Source: Muricea muricata (lineage: Eukaryota; Cnidaria; Anthozoa; Malacalcyonacea; Plexauridae). From it: DNA of 64,000 nt. This document shows, one piece after another, positions 5,889 through 60,763 of the stretch. Below the pieces are notes generated by a model that saw nothing but the letters and a program-made list of their open reading frames with translations, had not been told where the DNA came from and searched no databases. The translations under genes were made by a program, and so were the position numbers. The stretch lies in NCBI GenBank assembly GCA_963855995.1, contig OY979723.1, positions 9,739,013 through 9,803,012 on the forward strand. The letters run 5' to 3'. Position 1 is the stretch's first letter, and each line of letters starts with the position of its first letter.

Positions 5889-6307
5889 TGGACCATTTCC
5901 TAATTAGACAAACTTAAATTCGAAAACAATTTTAGCCCAGTTGGAAAGAGCTTCCTAAATTTAGTGAAATTTTGAAGTTTGGTTGCACAATATTGTACAA
6001 TATGGAAAATAAAGTAATGTAAAATTTGCGAATTTTGTATATATAATTTTGACTTTGTATTACGCGGGAAAAAGCGTTACCACATTTCCACATAGTGGTA
6101 CCGCTTTTCCGTTCGTAATACAAAAGTGTACAACCTTCCACATTTTACAATATTTCAAATTTCCACACTTCACATTTTACAATATTTCCACATTTTACAA
6201 TATTTTGCAACCAAACTTGACTGATTGTTTGAAATTTAGGATGCTCTTTCCAGCTGTCCTAATTGATTTTCCGAATTCAAAAGTTTGTTGAATGGGGGAA
6301 TGGTCCA
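5889..6307. repeat. Long foldback MITE, family F (copy in unit A2)
   Basis: Same structure as the copy at 292-712, at the same position relative to the next Cys-rich exon. It was therefore part of the ancestral A unit before tandem duplication. Confidence 0.85.
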
Positions 6308-6524
6308 TTAGTCATATTAAGTGTAGATCGACGTACATGCTCTATCACATCGGTCACTTTGATATATTCACGTCAAAATGGTAACTTATATATCTTAATG
6401 GCTTAATGTCCAAGAAAATGCAATATTGATACAAGTCAATGTCATTAAACGAATTTTGCATCAACTTGATACTTGCAGTTATTTGTAACTTGTGCGCTTT
6501 GGGTAATTATTGTCATTTATGTAG

Positions 6525-9500
6525 TTTTGCTGGTGCAGAAACAGCTGCCAGCACAAGAAGGGCGCAAAAAGACCCGGTTGTCCGTGCAGAAATGAAGGAT
6601 TGTATTGCGGAGACAAATGCAAGTGTGGCACAAATGTTATCATGTGTAAAAATAACGAAGACGGGCTGATGTCTAAGCCCAGGAAAAAAACAACCGAAAA
6701 ATATTTGGCAGAGAAGAGAGATGAGAGCTATAGATCATATCTGGTAAGATTTTACATAGAATTTTTCATTAATTTAGCTTCATTCCGCACTAAATTTTCT
6801 TGAAATCAGTTGTTCATAAGGTTTTATCGATTTCAAAAAAATTAGTAGGGCAGAACACGAATATATGCACATCCCCCCTCCCGCACCAACTAAATTTCTA
6901 GTGCCCCCCCCCACGCCAACTAAATCTCTAGTTATGGTCGTGACTATTAGAAACATGAAATACCGCAAGCAAGTCGAAGATATTGAGGGTGAACGTGAAA
7001 TACCAGAATAACTGCATGTGGGGGTAAATTTCATATATAGGATTCCTAACTTACATAAATATCGTTGTTTTCAGATTCGTTGTAATTCTTTCTGTTGTAG
7101 CCTTTTGTGGACGAGAATGACAGTGATAGTTCTGAAAAGGATCCGTCATCAACGCCAGGATCTCCCGAAAGTAGCATACCAGATTTTCGTAATGATAGTC
7201 AAGTCCCTCAAGGTTAGCAGAAACATTCATGCTGAGACAAAACACAAAGCGCAATCACTTATTAAGTAAGAACAGATGTGCAACTTCTGTCAAAAAGTTG
7301 TCTCGCATTCACCATCTTCCTAGCAAATGTCATCACAACGTGAGCTTTCGTGTATGTACATCCGAGGAAAATACGCGGAAACGAAGTGCTATGAAGTTAC
7401 ACATTTGTACGAAAGGTAGATAGCACTATCTACCGGTTAGTGATTCTTTAAACTTTGCATTATAACATGCTTAATTAACTGGTAAACCCCGTAAAGTTTA
7501 TTAGTTTCGAGTTAAGGTCACTTTTTACCGCTGGCGAGTTCAATATACCAGCTAGGTGTTATTGCGTTTTATGCTTTTCTGTGGTGGTTGAAAAAATCAC
7601 TATCCGGTGGATAGCGTCATCCATCTTTCGTGCAACCGGTGTCCCTGAAAATATGGCCTCCCTTTAAAATCCCCCCCCGGTCATATTTCCTAGCAAACGT
7701 CCTGCGAAATATGACCTCCTCTTACTAAATTTGGGTTAGGGTTTCCGAACGGGGCCATATTTCCTAGGATATTTGGCCCCCGGGCCATATTTCCTAGGGT
7801 TAGCGTTAGGGGTTTTTTTTGGGGGAGGCATATTTCCTGTTACACCGGTGTCAAGCGAAATTTATGATCTATGCGAAATACGTGACCATGCGTGACGGGT
7901 CATTAATTTCGCGCACGTGGGCGCGAAATTCATGACGCTTGCGAAATTCATGACTTAAGCGGAACATACAAATGTCAAGAAATGTGTATGTCGCATAGAA
8001 ATATAACCTGAAAACCTGCATTAATCGAGATATGAAGAATTTACAAGTCTGCTGCCGTTAATAGACTAAAGTTGATAAAAATATAACTCAACATTGCATC
8101 AGAAACTTCGTGAAATTGTCGATTAATAAACTTGAGCGTTTGTCGAAGTGTAAACATAATTGAACTGGGTTATCGCAACTATGACTTCTAAACATATTTT
8201 CAAAACATTGTAGCTTTCAGGCATGAAACAGCGCATTTTGAAAAGGGGCATTTTAATAGGACATATTGTTACACTCAGTCTAGATGCGTGACATTGATAC
8301 ATAACCCAAAATTTACACCAGTTAATTTGCCTTCGAATTAAGAGAATTTTGCGTATAAACTAAGCTATACAAGCTATACACACCATACACGCTATACAGA
8401 CCTCACTATACACACTATACAAGCTATATACACATGATAATCCCATCTATTAATTGATAATTCAAAATTAAAACCACATGACTTCAAAAACGAGCAAAGA
8501 TTTCCACCAAAACAAGAAACACACGTGCTGTTGTTGTCGACTTGCGAAATTTCTGAGCCGATGTCAATCATGCGCATCGTGTGCGCATGTGCAGATCTGT
8601 CATAGTCATGAATTTCGCAGGTCATAAATTTCGCGCGACACCGGCCCCTGTTCTTACCCAGCAAGAAAGGAACAACCGGTTCTGGACTCATGAAAATAGC
8701 CGATTGAACAATGTTTTGCGGCCCAAATTTCTCAATGTTGCCAACATTATTATGCAGAATTCTTTTGCAACAAAGTGTTTTCGTACAGGGCAAGCCAGAA
8801 ACAGAGCGCAAAACGGTCTGGCACCGAAATCTTCATGCAGTCGTGTATATCAAATCAAACGTGGCTATGCTCTCGTGATACACAACAAAAACTTCAATTA
8901 CAACCTTCGACCAAGAGAAGGGTCTGAAAAAGATCTTGAAGTGATAAAAGACTTCTGTGAGGAAGCAGATCTAAATCTTGATATTATACAAGATGTCACA
9001 ATCGACGAGATCCGTGCCCATTGTTTGAAACTGGTAACAAAAGAGAGAAGTGTATTTCAAAACTACGATGGTTTTGTTTGTTTTATACTTAGCCATGGAA
9101 ATGGGTAAATATATATAATTCTTTCAATTCATGATTATATTTTCCTATTAAAAACCATTCGCGCAATCCATCAGTTAAAACGTGATCGTAACTAGGGGCG
9201 CCATTTTCGCAACAAAAATGTTTACACATGTTAGAAACACATTTTTGCTTCGCAGGAGGAAAAATTTTGTTTCTCTGACAATGTGCCTCGAGGTGGACAA
9301 ACTGGGAAAATCATAGGAAGCATAGCGTTTCTGCAGCAGTTTGCCCAGGGCTTTAGGATTCCTCGCACAGAGGATCGCAGGCTCCGGCTACGAGACTGCC
9401 TCATGCGTCGCTGTCCAATGCATCGTTCTTTGATCCCAGGCGAAAATACCTGAATCTATTTTCATTTACAAAATTCTAAATGGCCACACTGCTCCAAACC

Positions 9501-9784
9501 TAAAAGACGTCTTTTACCATAATAATGAAAGAGAGATATTTACCATAAAAATAAAGTATGTATGTGTGTTTGTGTGTGTACTTTGTTTTAGGTCCGGCAT
9601 CTCTGGAAAAAACGACAATATAATAAGCGTCGAAGAAATTATAAAGTATTTCAAAGGAAGCGATGACCTCGTGGGAAAGCTTAAACTAGAAATACATGCA
9701 TGCAGAAACCCCTCGCCACTAACTAAGAGCATGCAACTAAATTTTCGGAATTACATGAAGTACGTGCATAGGTTGTTGTCATAG
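6525..9784 (+). pseudogene. Caspase A2, last exon truncated; may be a hybrid with B1
   Basis: Exons by homology to A1: Cys-rich 6525-6743, linker 7101-7212, His exon 8789-9104, and the start of exon 4 at 9592. The linker has eight codons more than A1 (a SIPDFRND insert). The His exon ends SHGN then a GGGTAAAT donor. Exon 4 follows A1 only to GGGAAAGCTTAAA (about 9685). It then breaks into unrelated sequence with a stop at 9784, so the QACRG cysteine and the small subunit are gone. The next downstream catalytic-Cys exon is B1 at 12255 and its splice phase fits the A2 His exon, so a hybrid A2-B1 transcript is possible. Otherwise A2 is a pseudogene. Confidence 0.7.
7849..8640. mobile_element. 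792-bp TIR element with CCGG target duplication
   Basis: Ends TGTCAAGCGAAATTTATGATC and GGTCATAAATTTCGCGCGACA are inverted repeats. CCGG flanks both sides (7845-7848 and 8641-8644), and A1 keeps the empty site TTACACCGGCCCCTG near 2475. It sits in intron 2 of A2 and A2'. Internal ACACTATACAAGCTATA short repeats lie at 8360-8430. No transposase; non-autonomous. Confidence 0.85.
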
Positions 9785-10183
9785 CAACACGGCAATTGTT
9801 ATTCTTTCCGTATATTTTTCAAAATGACAAAATATTGAGTTTTTAATCCTTGTTTTGTTGCCAATTTTTAAATGGCACAACACTTTTCATGGATGTGTTA
9901 TTACGCCTAATGTAAGCTTAAATTTGGTATAAAATACGACCTATTAATTACATTAATAATAAGAAGACAGTCTTGCATTTACAAAACATAAACTTACTCT
10001 GAAATTTAAACAGTGAATAGACTGGATGAGTACGGCTACGCCGGCCTTTATAAAGCATTAAAACACAAGTATAAATTCGCATTTTCAACAAACTTGCCTT
10101 GTATTTCACGCCATAGTCAATTGTTGGCGCTTCTCTGTATTTTCCCCGAATTAATCTCTCTTCAATCTTCTTCGGCAGCTCGT
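9785..10183. other. No gene recognised
   Basis: AT-rich sequence from the A2 breakpoint to the next transposon. I see no splice-bounded caspase exon, RNA gene or clear repeat here. Confidence 0.6.
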
Positions 10184-10350
10184 CACAGATCAGGTATAGA
10201 ACCAGATCAAAGAGTAGAGATGTCTCACTTCCTATCTATTCCTAATGTTTTCGTGTCCGCGATTTTTCGGCTGATCACGAATTGCACACGCGAGATGACG
10301 CAACCAGAGAGCACGAATTGCTCACGCAATGGCACTTGCCCACTTGCCAC

Positions 10351-11185
10351 CATAGAGATTATAAAAGAATAGAGGCGGCATCTGGGGACGAATCGCGGGA
10401 CAAATTGAACAAATCTAATGGGGGGCAAATTTAGGTCCCGGATGTATAGCGATGAAAGCATACTGTTTTTGTCAATTTTTGCTTGTTTTATGACCAGTAT
10501 GCACACAGATACTGACTATACTAGGAAAACATGTTTTTAGCTTTCTAGTTTTTGTAATTTTAGGTGCAGATAGCCAGATTTTTGTGTAAATATCAGAGTT
10601 TTTCAACCTTAGGTTCTCCCTAGCAACGCATAGCAACCAGTTTTTGACCGGCTTTTCGCAGCGAGGTTTTGCAAAATATCTGCTAAATTATCCCACATCT
10701 GGACACAAATTGAACTTATTTGCCTTCAAACAGTTATCAACATTGTTCTAGAGGTGCAACAAGGTGTACAACCACAATACGGCGATTTATTTAAACTTTA
10801 AGGACTTTTCTAGTGTGTTCATCTGATTTTTCGAATACAAAAATTGCATTTTCGCTCACAAATACTCAATATTAAACATACCCAACTTTATCCTGTATTC
10901 AAAACACAAAATTTAAACCTTTCAAGGCAATCCCGCACTAATCTTTAACATTTTCGCCTTAGTTTTTATTAAAAAAACTCTTAGTGCGAAAAAATCGGAA
11001 AAAGTTTTTTCTCAGCTTTCTCAATCTGTTGAACAGTCGATCAACAGCCAATAGGTGTAAGATGTTACATCCGGGCATATGATCCGGGTCTTAAATTTGC
11101 CCCCCATTAGCGAGCTTCAATTTGTCCCGCGAGCTTGACTGAATTTTAATCAGGATGCCGCCTCTATTCTTTTATAATCTCTATG
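10351..11185. mobile_element. 835-bp TIR element nested in family H, 8-bp TSD
   Basis: Inverted ends CATAGAGATTATAAAAGAAT and ATTCTTTTATAATCTCTATG. An 8 bp duplication CTTGCCAC flanks it (10343-10350, 11186-11193), and the empty site GGCACTTGCCACGCTGACG is kept in the sister copy near 17260. An 8 bp duplication suggests hAT-type mobilisation. No transposase. Confidence 0.9.
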
Positions 11186-11416
11186 CTTGCCACGCTGACG
11201 TGTACTGCTTACGTGAGAGCACTAATTGGACACGCAATACCTCTGGCAAGTGTAAGTCACATTTTTTATCAGAAAAAAGATAGGGAAGTGCAGAATTTTG
11301 GCAGTTAAACCGCGATTTTAGGCGCAACTACCTATTGGTCTTTATTTTCTTGACGAATTTTACTGATAAATGATACGCTGCTTCTTTTTAGCAAGAAAGA
11401 TTCACGCCACGCGAGC

Positions 11417-11530
11417 AAATCTGACGCGAGCGATCTGACGCGAGCAAGTGTGACGCGAGCAAATCTGACGCGAGCGATCTGACGCGAGCAAATCTGACGC
11501 GAGCAAATCTGACGAAGGCTGACGCGAGCT
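11417..11530. repeat. Short tandem repeat of (AT)CTGACGCGAGC
   Basis: About eight imperfect units of TCTGACGCGAGC with AA or GA spacers, inside the family H element. The sister copy at 17480-17560 has fewer units, so this is a variable internal minisatellite. Confidence 0.85.
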
Positions 11531-11699
11531 CTTCAAAATCGCGGACATAAATTTTGCTTAGTGAGACATCTGGTTCTATACCTGATCTGTGGTCTCGTCG
11601 AGCCTTTGTCGTCGTCTACGCTCGTTTCGCCCTAGGTAGCCCAAAATTGTTCAGTGTTTTGATAAATTCAAACATCCATTCAGTTTTATATTGAGGTCT

Positions 11700-12254
11700 G
11701 TGACGTAGCGGTAGTTGCGTAAAGGCTAGTGTACATGCAAACGTTTCACACAGAAATTCATTCTCTTCCTCCTATTACATGGAAATGATCCTCTTTGGGT
11801 GTCTGCCTGCCGTCAGCATCAATGAACGCCAGCAACCTCTTTGGTATTGACTACAACAATCGCTTGCTCAACTTCTTGGTCGACCTCTCTCTACCTCTTA
11901 TTGACCATCAATCTGTTGATTCTTCACACAGTCCTGCCCGTAGTTTCGTTGATTCCACGTGATCCATTCTTTCTGCCCGAACATAATGATCCCCTTGGTC
12001 TGGGTGAGGTCAAACTATGCTTGCTTGTGTTTGATCCACTTGACCATCTCTGCATTACAAATATTTAACTCCTTTCACAATCTCAGACGCAAATGACGTT
12101 TTAAAATCCCCGAAAGTCAGAGTTCTTTTACTTGACCTCAACACCTTTTTGTGCACATTATAACTTTAAGGATTGCATGTAAATAGCAAAAGTTACTAAA
12201 CATCGTGAAAGATGCACTAAGGACAATTTACATTTTCGCTTGTACATTCTTTAG
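11700..12254 (+). other. Intron 3 sequence of a B-type caspase, His exon missing
   Basis: From CACACAGAAATTCATTCTCTTCC (about 11748) to the acceptor at 12254, the sequence matches intron 3 of B3 (25975-26352) and B4. The exon with the catalytic His that should precede it is absent; transposon family H and unrelated DNA lie there instead. Confidence 0.75.
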
Positions 12255-12729
12255 TTCTGGTATCTGTGGAGTGTCCGACGAAACGATAAGCGTCAAAGAA
12301 ATTGTATCCTATTTCAAAGAAAACAACGAACTCCTCGGAAAACCCAAATTGTTCTTCATCCAAGCTTGTCGAGCTTACGTCGAAGACGATAACACCAGGA
12401 TTGATTACAAAAAAACCTTATGCCCACCAGATTCATCCGACATCCTGGTCGCATATTCAACAATCGATGGCGAGTTATTCTACAGGGATATTTCCAGTCG
12501 CTCATCGTTCATCCAAACTTTGCTGAAGCAGATTAGCACGCATGCGTATAGCGAACACTTGATGGACATAATGATTACGGTGAATAAAAAGATAGCTGAG
12601 AACAAACTGGACGGTAACAGACAAATGTTGCCACAAGTTTCGACTGTGAAAAAATGCGTGTATTTCAAGATGGCAAAGGTTGGTAGTTGTACTAAAAGTC
12701 GTGATGAAGAAGGGGAAATAGTGTCAAAG
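12255..12729 (+). CDS. Caspase B1 catalytic-Cys/small-subunit exon, fused to a B exon 1
   Basis: Begins after the acceptor ATTCTTTAG with SGICGVSDETISV, then GKPKLFFIQACRAY (catalytic Cys kept; the canonical Gly after CR is Ala), PPDSSDILVAYST, YRD and RSSFIQTLL (no Trp). After the normal caspase end (YFKMAKVG) it does not stop. It runs on as SCTKSRDEEGEIVSK, which is homologous to exon 1 of the B genes, and meets the same AAAG/GTGAGA donor at 12730 in phase 0. So it can splice to 13352 and continue into caspase B2. Unspliced, it reads to a stop at 12825 through a hydrophobic tail (LLIVIGKAAIMLCLSFYLL). Its own His exon is missing; the nearest compatible one is A2 at 8789-9104. Confidence 0.75.
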
Positions 12730-13351
12730 GTGAGATTGCTAATTGTTATAGGAAAAGCTGCAATAATGCTATGTCTCAGCTTTTACTTGTTAAAAATAAC
12801 TAAGTGTATCATTCAAGATCAGTGATCTCAATGTTTTTAACATTTTCAACCTTTATAGTGCTAAAAATATCGAGTTCACTAATTCCGAATATACAGAACA
12901 TCTCTAGAATCAATATTTCTATCATTCAAACAAGGCTTTACAATGAAGCAGTAAAGTCATCTTCAGACAGAATGAAATACAATATTTTACAACACACATA
13001 CGAACACTATGAAACTCCAGTTATCCTGCTTGTTGAGTCATTCTTCTATAGGACATAGTATCATAATTGTAAACATATTCATATCAATTTTATACGTCTT
13101 GTTTGAGCGCTATATATTGATTCTCCATGTGTCCTCTATATTTGAAATTTGTTTTGTACTTTACTTTTTTAAATTTTCGGCTAGTTAGGTTTCTCAATTG
13201 AAGGAGTTGTACTATACCTTAAAGCCCATCGTTCAAAAGGCTATAATTGTGCGCTTAAATCTTTCTAAATTCACCCTAAATTAATTAACTGGAGGGTCAA
13301 TAAAACTTAACCAATCCATCAAGTATGATTTCTGTTTTCTTAATTTTTCAG

Positions 13352-14902
13352 ACAAATGAGATTGCACATGAAAGTAATAGTTGCAATCCTCACGAAGAGC
13401 CGATTTCAGTTTCAATCAACACATGCAGTACTAGTGTAAAAAGCAACCTTGAAGGTAAAGATTTGAAAAGAAAAGTTTCCTGTATAATAATAAGGAGTCG
13501 GATACCTTCTTTGAGCCTGGCTTTAGCCAGAGGTATCCAATCAATCGAGCCAGGGCACTTGAGAAACGATAGGGTGTCATAAGTCAGTGACATCTCGCGC
13601 AGAGGTCCTTAGGCCAGGGACACCTTATCTTATTATGACGCCACTGCCTCCGGAAATTTCTAAAGGTTTAATTACAGCAAATATGACATCGTTAAAGGTC
13701 GTCTTTAAGACCTTAAACATTTGTTCGAGTGTGCACAATATTTTTTTGTTGTAGGGCAGATAGGAAACGAATACGAAAAGGCTTTACAGGAGTCATTGCA
13801 TCAAATCAACAATGGCTACGCTCTGGTCATACACAATAGATTTTTCGACAAACTTCCATCAAGAAGAGGATCTGAAAAAGATTTTGATGCGATAAAGATA
13901 TTCTGTGAAAAGGCAGGTCTCTACCTGGATATTATAGAAAATGCCAAAGTCAACGATATCCGCCGCCATTGTCGCAAACTCAGACGAGATAAAAGTGAAT
14001 TTCAGAAATATGATGGTTTCGTTTGTTTTATACTTAGCCACGGAAGTCGGTAATTATCTAGTACGGTGCTTTATATGGATGATACACGGGTTATTGTTTA
14101 TTTAGCCCCTGATTCTTGGGGAATTAGTACTAAAAACGAGGATTTTAAAAACATTTCTTTGTTAAAAAATAAAAGCTACTGTACATGCAAACGTTTCACA
14201 AAGAAATTCATCCTCTTCTTCCTATTACATGGAAATGATCCTCTAATACAAATATTTAACTCCTTCTCTAATTTCAGACCCAAATGACGTTTTAAAATTT
14301 CTAAAAGTTAGAGTTCTACTTGACAACAAAAAAATGGTAGAAATTAAAACTTTAAGGACTTCATGTAAATAGCAAAAGTTATACTAAACATCAAAAAAGA
14401 TGCAGTAAGAACCATTTACATTTTCGCTTGTACATTCTTTAGTTCTGGTATCTGTGGAGTGTCCGGAGATACGATAAGCGTCGAAGAAATTGTATCCTAT
14501 TTCAAAGAAAACAACGACCTTTTCGGAAAACCCAAATTGTTCTTCATCCAAGCTTGTCGAGCTGGCGTCGAAGACGATACCACCAGGATTGATCACGAAA
14601 AAACCTTATGCCCACCAGATTCATCCGACATCCTGGTCGCATATTCAACAATCTACGGCGAATTAGCCTACAGGGATATTGACAATGGATCATGGTTTAT
14701 CCAAACTCTGCTCAAGCAGATTAGCACGCATGCGTATAACGAACACTTGATGGACATAATGATCATGGTGAATAAAAAGATAGCTACAAGTGACCTAGAA
14801 GGTAAAAGACAAATGCCGCAGCAGGTTTCGACATTGACAAAATTTGTGTATTTCAAGATGGCAGAGGTTGGGAAGGTGCTGAAGCGAAAAACTCTATATT
14901 AA
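13352..14902 (+). CDS. Caspase B2 (exons 2-4)
   Basis: Exons: 13352-13454 (prodomain part, TNEIAHESNS, phase 0 to 1), 13755-14049 (GQIGNEYEKALQE then NNGYALVIHN, pocket motif RRGSEKD, catalytic FILSHGS), 14443-14902 (SGICGVSGDTISV, IQACRAGVEDD, PPDSSDILVAYST, YRD, GSWFIQTLL, end KVLKRKTLY). Phases agree across all junctions. His and Cys are present, as is the small-subunit GSWFIQ, so it may be active despite QACRA in place of QACRG. It has no exon 1 of its own; the exon 1 homologue is fused to the end of B1 (12685-12729). No CARD or DED is seen in the prodomain. Confidence 0.8.
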
Positions 14903-45986: not shown

Positions 45987-47335
45987 AAAAAATTGAGGAA
46001 ACGCGGCCAGGATTATACATGATGAGTAAATGCAAACGTTCTCTGACCAAATAACTGATAATTCGAGCTTACGGCTGCCAGACTACAGCCTTCAACGGGA
46101 AACAAAAGTCTGAAATATAAAACTATGTACAAGCAAATATGGAGCACAAAGTAATATGATACATATGGACAGGTTAAGCCTTATTCAGCAATTTGCGATA
46201 CTGTTCTGGTAGTGGTTTCGAATTGTTGTCCGATTCAGCTGTAATTGCTGTGTGCCACGACTCTTGTGTTTTTCTTGTTCGATAGTTACCCTTGTCAATA
46301 ACTTTCGCATCTTCAAAATTAATTATGAGGTCATTAATCCAAGGATGACTCGCTATATTTGAGCCAGCAATGTTTTGTTTGACATTCCTAATATGTTCTT
46401 TCTTTCGTGTTTCGAAACACCTTCCCGTTTCGCCAATATGACTCCAAAAGCAGTCTTTGCAGGGGATTTTGTGGATTAAGTTGGTCTGCTTTTCGGTTTC
46501 AGGTCTTGTTGTAGTGTTCTTGTAGGTTTATTAGAAACTTTTATATCATGTTTCCGCAGAACTCGGGTGAGAGGCTCTGTTAAGCCCTTGTATAAGGCAG
46601 AACCGCGTGGCCAGTCGGTGTTGTGAGTCGATCAACCAAGACAAAGAATTCACGTACTGACTGTTCACGTTGAGGAGTCACTTTTGTTTTCTTTTGTCTT
46701 CTCTGTACATCTGCGATAAATTTGGTGGGGTGGCCGTTTGACTTTAAAGCCTCGACAACGTTCTTTGTTTCAATGGCTTTGCCTTCTACAGTGTTAGGTA
46801 GTCGGGTTGCCCTATGTATAAAAGTGTTGCAGCTGTACTAATTTTATGTTTTTTGTCATGGTGCGATTTGAAACGTAAATATCTGTCAGGGTGTGTGGGT
46901 TTGCGGTAGACGTTAGTTGTAATAGTACCAGAATTCTGTGAAATCAATGTGTCTAAAAAGGCAATTTGTGGTTTAGTCTCGTGTTCTATGGTAAAAGAGA
47001 TGTGAGGGTCAATAGAATTTAACTCTTTGTGAAAGGAAGAAATTGCATCTTTCTTCATAATACAGAAGACATCGTCAACATAACGATCCCATTCTCTCGG
47101 TGGATAGGTTGTGTTAGTAATAGCACGTTCTTCGATCTCCTCCATGTAAAGGTTTGCTATAACCGGACTAACTGGGCTTCCCCATAGCACAGCCATGGAA
47201 TTGTCTATAAGTGGTGCTGTTATACGTGAAAAAGCTATTGGAATGCGTGAAACGTAACAGAGATATTATATCGTCAATCGTGAGTGTGGTTCTAGATGGT
47301 AAAGTAACGTCTGATTCATTATTGTTCATCTACCC
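45987..47335 (-). pseudogene. Penelope-like element, minus copy: RT C-terminus plus GIY-YIG
   Basis: Minus strand: SDVTLPSRTTLTIDDIISLL (47330-47240), a frame change, then GSPVSPVIANLYMEEIEER, RYVDDVFCIM (RT catalytic YVDD), ISFTIEHETKPQIAFLDTLI, VYRKPTHPDRYL to 46786. Further down, in other frames, come PLTRVLRKHDIKVSNKPTRT and IPCKDCFWSHIGETGRCFET, the GIY-YIG nuclease domain typical of Penelope-like elements, ending near 46190. Broken by frameshifts. A degenerate hammerhead core (CCGTTGA, stem GGCTG/CAGCC, GTAA) lies at 46071-46097. Confidence 0.85.
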
Positions 47336-53582: not shown

Positions 53583-53811
53583 TGATGTGTTCCACATAGT
53601 GGCACCGCTTTTCCGTTCGTAATACAAAAGTGTACAAACTTCCACATTTTACAATATTCCAAATTTCCACGCTTCATATTTTACAATATTTCCACATTTT
53701 ACGATATTTTGCAACCAAACTTGACTGATTGTTTGAAATTTAGGATGCTCTTTCCAGCTGTCCTAATTGATTTTCCGAATTCAAAAGTTTGTTGAATGGG
53801 GGAATGGTCCA
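53583..53811. repeat. Right half of a foldback family F element
   Basis: Begins at the central CACATAGTGG motif and ends AATGGTCCAT. The left half and the adjoining TGACGTGGATATTTCGC block have been deleted relative to 5680-6307. Confidence 0.8.
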
Positions 53812-54028
53812 TTAGTCATATTAAGTGTAGATCGACGTACATGCTCTATCACATCGGTCACTTTGATATATTCACGTCAAAATGGTAACTTATATATCTT
53901 AATGGCTTAATGTCCGAGAAAATGCAATATTGATACAAGTCAATGTCATTAAACGAATTTTGCATCAACTTGATACTTGCAATTATTTGTAACTTGTGCG
54001 CTTTGGGTAATTATTGTCATTTATGTAG

Positions 54029-54527: not shown

Positions 54528-54948
54528 ATGGACCATTCCCTAATTAGACCAACTTAAATTCGAAAACAATTTTAGCCCAGTTGGAAAGAGCTTCCTAAAT
54601 TTAGTGAAATTTTGAAGTTTGGTTGCACAATATTGTAAAATATCGAAAATAAAGTAATGTAAAATTTGCGAATTTTGTATATATAATTTTGACTTTGTAT
54701 TACGCGGGAAAAAGCGTTACCACACTTCCACATAGTGGTACCGCTTTTCCGTTCGTAATACAAAAGTGTACAAACTTCCACATTTTACAATATTTCAAAT
54801 TTCCACGCTTCATATTTTACAATATTTCCACATTTTACAATATTTTGCAACCAAACTTGACTGATTGTTTGAAATTTAGGATGCTCTTTCCAGCTGTCCT
54901 AATTGATTTTCCGAATTCAAAAGTTTGTTGAATGGGGGAATGGTCCAT
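54528..54948. repeat. Long foldback MITE, family F (unit A1')
   Basis: Copy of 292-712. Confidence 0.85.
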
Positions 54949-55164
54949 TAGTCATATTAAGTGTAGATCGACGTACATGCTCTATCATATCGGTCACTTT
55001 GATATATTCACGTCAAAATGGTAACTTATATATCTTAATGGCTTAATATCCAAGAAAATGCAATATTGATACAAGTCAATGTCATTAAACGAATTTTGCA
55101 TCAACTTGATACTTGCAGTTATTTGTAACTTGTGCGCTTTGGGTAATTATTGTCATTTATGTAG

Positions 55165-60127: not shown

Positions 60128-60547
60128 TGGACCATTTCCTAATTAGACAAACTTAAATTCGAAAACAATTTTAGCCCAGTTGGAAAGAGCTTCCTAAATT
60201 TAGTGAAATTTCGAAGTTTGGTTGCACAATATTGTACAATATGGAAAATAAAGTAATGTAAAATTTGCGAATTTTGTATATATAATTTTGACTTTGTATT
60301 ACGCGGGAAAAAGCGTTACCACACTTCCACATAGTGGTACCGCTTTTCCGTTCGTAATACAAAAGTGTACAACCTTCCACATTTTACAATATTTCAAATT
60401 TCCACACTTCACATTTTACAATATTTCCACATTTTACAATATTTTGCAACCAAACTTGACTGATTGTTTGAAATTTAGGATGCTCTTTCCAGCTGTCCTA
60501 ATTGATTTTCCGAATTCAAAAGTTTGTTGAATGGGGGAATGGTCCAT
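60128..60547. repeat. Long foldback MITE, family F (unit A2')
   Basis: Copy of 5889-6307. Confidence 0.85.
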
Positions 60548-60763
60548 TAGTCATATTAAGTGTAGATCGACGTACATGCTCTATCACATCGGTCACTTTG
60601 ATATATTCACGTCAAAATGGTAACTTATATATCTTAATGGCTTAATGTCCAAGAAAATGCAATATTGATACAAGTCAATGTCATTAAACGAATTTTGCAT
60701 CAACTTGATACTTGCAATTATTTGTAACTTGTGCGCTTTGGGTAATTATTGTCATTTATGTAG

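Follow-up and report, generated by a model that had tools for sequence, protein, structure and literature searches.

The fusion exon and its array

The window analysed here is a 64,000-nucleotide stretch of contig OY979723.1 of the Muricea muricata assembly (C8:9739013-9803012, C8 being the contig and w a window position), and its caspases form part of an array that spans about C8:9.688-9.846 Mb. Array positions (C8 minus 9,670,000) refer to a 190-kb N-free stretch made of the window and its flanks. The 453-Mb genome holds at least 98 Peptidase_C14 matches, and the genes there are intron-bearing. The opposite strand carries a second caspase subfamily, with QNCRG, at w21627-22559 (-), w31724-32413 and w42543-43253 (-); the open frame of the first has a long degenerate repetitive C-terminal tail (RGMHRTTTP.. 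/ DQHGRSINR..). Long Ser/Arg/Asp-rich repeat tails (TRPRSLSDY..) also extend some unfused terminal exons (Table 1), others stopping shortly past AEVG. Tc1-type transposase-like pieces lie at w15282-15644 (-) (DDE_3, E 3.3e-13) and w28867-29160 (-) (paired-box/HTH-like, PAX E 6.1e-6).

Table 1. Features of the window and of the surrounding caspase array
Feature	Position	Strand	Remarks
Repeat block	w490-789, 6086-6385, 53590-53889, 54726-55025, 60325-60624		two pairs at ~5.6-kb spacing and one extra
W4 linker-bearing E4 exon	w4011-4506	+	E4u-type 5' half; linked-type 3' half with linker
Candidate first coding exon, E3u	w8752-9104	+	p20 N-terminal half, catalytic His (SHGNG), donor phase 2
Broken E4u exon	w9592-9784	+	acceptor intact; resemblance to unbroken E4u stops at ~w9680-9688
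TIR-bounded transposon-like element	w10181-11597	.	inverted repeats (TIR CACAGATCAGGTATAGAACCAGAT)
Fusion exon	w12255-12729	+	p20 C-terminal part with catalytic Cys (QACRA), whole p10, linker; mosaic origin
Linker from a caspase first exon	w12685-12729	+	SCTKSRDEEGEIVSK; 45 nt, GT donor phase 0
Unit 2, exon 2	w13352-13454	+	prodomain-like segment
Unit 2, p20 N-terminal exon	w13755-14049	+	catalytic His (SHGSR)
Unit 2, terminal exon	w14443-14902	+	catalytic Cys (QACRAG), p10 with GSWF, stop TAA
Unfused first exon with ATG, for comparison	w45805-45873	+	MNPLDSADSSNKSRYEEGEIVSK
W4, near-identical copy	w58250-58745	+	in 54-kb duplication
Linker loci	C8:9699213 (C), 9727407 (D), 9743480 (W4), 9751703 (window gene), 9797719 (W4 duplicate), 9806145 (window gene duplicate)
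Unfused genes with long exon 3	array E3 at 46891 and 169568		own first exon MNPTDSYVKSLEEEG(G)ILK
Tailed unfused terminal exons	array 41302, 164477, 170435 (C8:9711302, 9834477, 9840435)

The fusion exon of the window gene is bounded by an acceptor at 12255 (..ttctttag/TTCTGG) and by a phase-0 donor after 12729 (TCAAAG/gtgaga). A preliminary description of this DNA had seen a caspase end that runs without a stop into the first exon of a further caspase and uses its phase-0 donor, and both points are borne out. The frame is open across the junction, FKMAKVG-SCTKSRDEEGEIVSK, the peptide that follows FKMAKVG being the linker KSRDEEGEIVSK; over its 45 nt the linker is 91.1% identical to the first exons of two unfused genes (E ~1e-14), and the donor position is the same in all six linkers found in the genome. 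The similarity begins precisely at an AGT codon (AGT TCT AAT), the ATG and leader being gone. The boundaries given earlier (12255, 12729, 13352, 13755, 14443 and the stop end 14902) are each an exact exon edge; the residues then quoted for the unfused exon 1 are indeed alike but do not form a single sequence, reading SSNKSRYEEG at w45829 and SSNKSHNEEG or SSNISHNEEG elsewhere. A 22-nt linker core has at least six exact matches in the 453 Mb, all inside the caspase array, which exceeds chance; at 2-3 mismatches there are at least seven more, five in the array (unfused first exons) and two elsewhere, against six for the reversed pattern at equal tolerance, all these counts being lower bounds. 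With a 41-aa query the same six loci are recovered at full length among 17 matches, all 17 on C8 within the array. The Asp of KSRD in the linker is found in 6/6 linker copies versus 0/7 type-A first exons at that position, and it may be a candidate cleavage site; the Glu that follows it is not favoured as a P1' residue.

Downstream of the linker, the introns in the second-unit part of the window gene have phases 0, 1 and 2. We searched the intron 12730-13351 for a hidden first exon of unit 2 with leader and first-exon sequences from two type-A genes and one type-B gene, all unfused, and none was found by similarity; the only matches, the linker itself and weak stretches of 13-21 nt (E 0.14-0.45), were rejected as candidates. 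The earlier view of a downstream caspase deprived of its own exon 1 is supported, the exons at 13352, 13755 and 14443 completing the second caspase, and the separate first exon that had been set against it did not appear in this similarity search of the intron. Unit 2 begins at residue 277 of the 561-aa window model, and the first in-frame Met after the linker is at 512.

The exon could nevertheless be shared by two separate proteins, if unit 2 were transcribed from within the fusion exon and translated from the Met of FKMAKVG. The resulting 20-residue exon-1 segment (MAKVGSCTKSRDEEGEIVSK) would come near the ~23 residues that a normal first exon contributes up to the same donor (MNPLDSADSSNKS..), and this ATG, in frame with the linker, has a favourable context (CAAGATGG), since A at -3 and G at +4 favour a start ATG under the Kozak rule. 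However, the ATG is ordinary E4 coding sequence that is also present in unlinked E4 exons, and comparison with the 5' region of three unfused genes showed nothing leader-like here, so that we regard separate translation as unlikely. Transcripts might also end prematurely in the post-linker intron, so that unit 1 would be a lone caspase with an unusual tail and unit 2 would not be produced. The linker frame does continue into the intron up to a stop ending at w12825, and one AATAAA, a motif frequent by chance in AT-rich DNA, lies at w13299; but the donor and the downstream exons are in frame both in the window gene and in its paralogue D (below), and such an ending seems to us quite improbable.

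Gene D and the other linker loci

The six linker exons of the genome all lie in the array, at four paralogous loci (C, D, W4 and the window gene) and two duplicates (Table 1), and 6/6 are in frame; a seventh E4 exon of the linked type has lost its linker at the edge of a 7.4-kb duplication. The cleanest two-caspase gene is gene D, outside the window (C8:9724942-9730065), which has an ATG and seven exons in the order E1-E2-E3-E4+linker-E2-E3-E4 and encodes 598 aa. Its splice sites are all GT-AG with phases 0-1-2-0-1-2, its ATG and leader context resembles that of unfused genes, and it carries SHGN and QVCRA in unit 1, SHGN and QACRA in unit 2. Gene D likely produces a two-caspase protein. Unit 2 of D, of C and of the window gene has an exon 3 of a long type that two unfused genes share (Table 1) and, since these have a first exon of their own, we infer that a head gene was joined to a tail gene of another type. 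The remaining loci are less regular: the only p20 exon that paralogue C has ahead of its linked exon, at the place matching the window's, is degenerate, and at W4 no second-unit exon was found between the linker and w8752. Three of the four distinct linker loci (C, W4 and the window) are thus not simple double genes.

The array has also been duplicated on a larger scale. About 54 kb including the left of the window (w1-27000, which covers the fusion locus) is repeated 54.0-54.4 kb downstream (array offset +54.2 kb; C8 ~9738366 onward) with 99.3-99.6% identity in the longest pieces, which could reflect a recent duplication or haplotypes placed in series; a 7.4-kb block further left is also duplicated (99.5-99.9%). 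The window gene differs from its duplicate at 1/1,686 coding bases (one residue), at 0/1,315 bases in the three later introns, and by 6 substitutions and 318 gapped bases in the first intron, so that its second copy is either a very recent duplication or two haplotypes set end to end. Separately, around the W4 and window genes there is a repeat block whose five copies match the reference at 98-100%. Could the fusion itself, or the second 54-kb copy, be an assembly artefact from collapsed or duplicated haplotypes? Near-identity of the two window-gene copies over coding sequence and three introns is what haplotypes, or a very recent duplication, would give, but the fusion is present at four diverged loci (dS 0.08-0.16 between the linked exons at C, D and the window), more than one wrong join in the assembly could produce, and we give an artefact hardly any weight. 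Fusion at the DNA level is near certain.

The doubtful first unit of the window gene

The preliminary description saw two caspases fused head to tail at the window locus, but the first of them is not complete there: no p20 N-terminal exon of unit 1's own type was found upstream of 12255 at this locus, and a normal four-exon caspase was therefore rejected as a model for unit 1. The only candidate for a first coding exon, E3u, belongs to a different caspase subfamily from unit 1. It has an in-frame ATG at 8752, shared with paralogues C0 and C and replaced by ACG/Thr in W4 and its copy, and an acceptor-like AG just before 8789. The next exon is a broken E4u, whose frame past ~9680-9688 reads EIHACRN.. 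and then a stop, with no Pfam match in the frame w9434-9784. Further on, the transposon-like element, with a second inverted-repeat element nested inside it (~w10351-11185), occupies the expected place of unit 1's missing p20 exon, and similarity to the equivalent intron of paralogue C restarts at w11720. A shorter relative of the element lies at w17121-17628.

Because unit 1's own p20 N-terminal exon is missing, a two-domain product of this locus would need a splice from 9104 to 12255. This splice is phase-compatible and gives the uninterrupted 561-aa double caspase model with both dyads; the broken E4u is a competing terminal exon, which the fused product requires to be skipped. The claim of a polyprotein with two catalytic domains finds a complete gene model in D, and at the window locus it depends on the skipping splice. 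With a sole first-exon candidate from another subfamily, reached past a broken exon and nested inserts, the window copy is doubtful, and whether its exons would yield a two-caspase protein is an even call at best.

Mosaic exons and selection

We took 30 codons as diagnostic, those at which none of eight unlinked E4 exons has the codon of either linked exon, C or D. The window E4 exon is unlinked-like in 10/10 of these codons between codons 18 and 73 and, between codons 76 and 144, linked-like in 16/20, private in 4/20 and unlinked-like in 0/20. It is thus a recombinant, with an unlinked-type 5' half and a linked-type p10 and linker. W4 switches type in the same part of the exon: of the informative codons examined (D numbering), 7/7 are E4u-like up to codon 60 and 10/10 linked-like from codon 67. 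The p10 and linker are a common module of the linked exons and, because it is shared as a module, a plain tree shows no single linked clade. In the E4 tree (20 rows, 17 of them different; g175560 was omitted on account of a frameshift in its exon), one clean clade of linked exons had to be rejected, the window exon standing beside the unlinked clade (support 90/84) and W4 with E4u; constraining C, D and the window together (14 rows) was not rejected (p-AU 0.138).

Among the linked E4 exons of C, D and the window, NG86 dN/dS is 0.40-0.58, and the linker with E2 shows 8-11 replacement versus 0-1 silent changes per pair. A GY codon model of 11 E4 exons, with stops in 0/11, gives an omega of 0.63 and rejects omega 1 (2dlnL 8.02, p 0.0046); omega is 0.64 for the three linked exons (C, D, window), indistinguishable from 1 (p 0.16), and 0.70 for the eight unlinked ones (p 0.088), these p-values being approximate, since kappa was taken from a grid of eight values in the fixed-omega runs. 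Pairwise binomial tests on the linked exons give p 0.011, 0.10 and 0.14. We thus discarded strong selection on the linked exons, given the GY result; evolution of the family is rapid, and only the E4 set as a whole gives support for weak constraint.

These data bear on decay: the window locus, C and W4 may be pseudogene-like remnants of a fast birth-and-death array with protein made by just some of the unfused neighbours and perhaps by D. The window locus lacks its own p20 exon and carries nested inserts, C has a degenerate p20 exon, no second unit was found in W4, the codon test on the linked exons alone is not significant, and the near-identical 54-kb and 7.4-kb duplications denote recent instability. 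On the other hand, the window exons are free of stops and frameshifts over 561 codons with splice sites compatible throughout, and gene D is complete. Decay competes with a working two-caspase gene for the window copy alone, not for D, and we consider it nearly as probable as its opposite.

Catalytic and pocket residues

Peptidase_C14 (cut-off 21.4 bits) matches two stretches in D and two in the window model, with whole-protein values of E 1.6e-79 (267 bits) for D and E 1.1e-81 (274 bits) for the window model minus its first 12 residues. In D and the window model alike, each of the two units has the catalytic His and Cys (SHG, Q[AV]CR), and both halves look catalytically active, judging from these residues. 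No CARD or DED, the prodomains of initiator caspases, was matched in Pfam up to E 1 in D or in the window model, which begins at w8752. Of the solved chains, the best 60 of 225 for window unit 2 and the best 60 of 188 for D unit 1 are mostly caspase-3 and -7, and the alignment to these chains covers those two units. The pentapeptide QACXG is not matched: the sequence is QACRA in both window units, and QVCRA and QACRA in D; elsewhere among 21 E4 rows it is QACRA, HVCRA or QACRD, with QACRG in W4 and its copy, E4u (2) and g175560.

In caspases the substrate Asp is held by Arg, Gln and Arg, as described in the text of PMC10967218. D unit 1 and window unit 2 both have them, as the Arg of SRRGSEKD, the Gln of QACR/QVCR and the Arg of AYRD/PYRD, and in the other two units they were matched by eye. 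The Trp of GSWF, which the same text assigns to the caspase-3 P4 pocket, is absent in 7/7 linked-type E4 exons and present in 13/14 other E4 exons of the array, the fourteenth having a shifted-frame Trp. The copies being related, Trp loss and the linker Asp each count as few independent events.

Discussion

The DNA structure, the open frames, the compatible splice sites, the kept dyads and the mosaic exon are all read directly in the assembly, and they suggest a joining event behind the fusion. By a deletion or an unequal crossover in the tandem array, the last exon of one gene could have been fused at its 3' end, in frame, to the inside of the next gene's first exon. The leader and ATG of the downstream gene would have been lost in the process and the rest of its exon 1, with exon 2, turned into a spacer of ~60 residues that kept the phase-0 donor. 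In the preliminary description a deletion had made the fusion: the in-frame loss of leader and ATG agrees with this, but a single deletion at the window locus does not explain an arrangement shared by at least four loci or a recombinant E4. We suggest instead that the two-caspase gene stayed intact in D and that the window locus inherited the rearranged form; the window copy would then be a recombined relative, its head swapped for an exon of another subfamily.

Caspases, proteases of cell death, normally act as dimers of two molecules. If transcribed and translated, the fused gene would produce a single-chain double procaspase, both halves with His and Cys and the first with a substrate pocket built differently. 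The halves might pair within one chain or with those of a second chain, and might be separated or trimmed by cutting at aspartates; processing, dimer and function are all predictions of this model. From array joining through a two-caspase gene to the single-chain double procaspase, we favour the explanation as a whole, with moderate confidence.

Double caspases as such are already known from corals and mammals, and in the two that are best characterised the first domain is dead. Coral caspase-X (Acropora; Moya et al., 2016, PMC4715348), isolated as a cDNA, has two caspase domains in one polypeptide of 721 aa and four paralogues in A. millepora, and its first domain is thought to regulate the second by intrachain contact; the authors also point to unverified database entries with more than one domain. 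As a gene model, D likewise has two domains in one polypeptide. As caspase-X is described, however, its domain 1 lacks catalytic His and Cys, whereas unit 1 of D and of the window gene has both. In mammalian CASP16 (Eckhart et al., 2025, PMC12198278; review PMC12292325) the caspase domain is reported to have doubled through exon duplication, with a single-chain domain pair proposed. CASP16 differs in being a vertebrate gene whose first domain has, by that account, lost the dyad kept in unit 1 of D and the window gene, and in its origin, exon duplication there and here two genes joined via a first-exon remnant. In Mytilus coruscus, tandem duplication has enlarged the caspase family, and 4/47 of its genes have two CASc domains (PMC10967218); by its description, this family shares with ours the double domains, the tandem expansion and the frequent pentapeptide departures. 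Our literature search, which covered passages of main texts, found no description of a double caspase with both dyads kept, and the main-text parts of PMC7836458 and PMC11251625 mention no double-domain caspases.

More broadly, and only tentatively, the linked genes might make up a small family of double caspases, single chains with two live active sites, in which a Trp-less p10 and linker module has been recombined onto different p20 halves within one exon, array recombination thus giving rise to new two-enzyme proteases. The locus offers a readable case of a first exon that, minus its start codon, became a protein linker, and another of intra-exon recombination exchanging caspase half-domains. 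A gene with two hard-wired caspases and both dyads would allow intrachain pairing to be tested as a mode of activation, and would allow testing why the first site was lost in caspase-X and CASP16.
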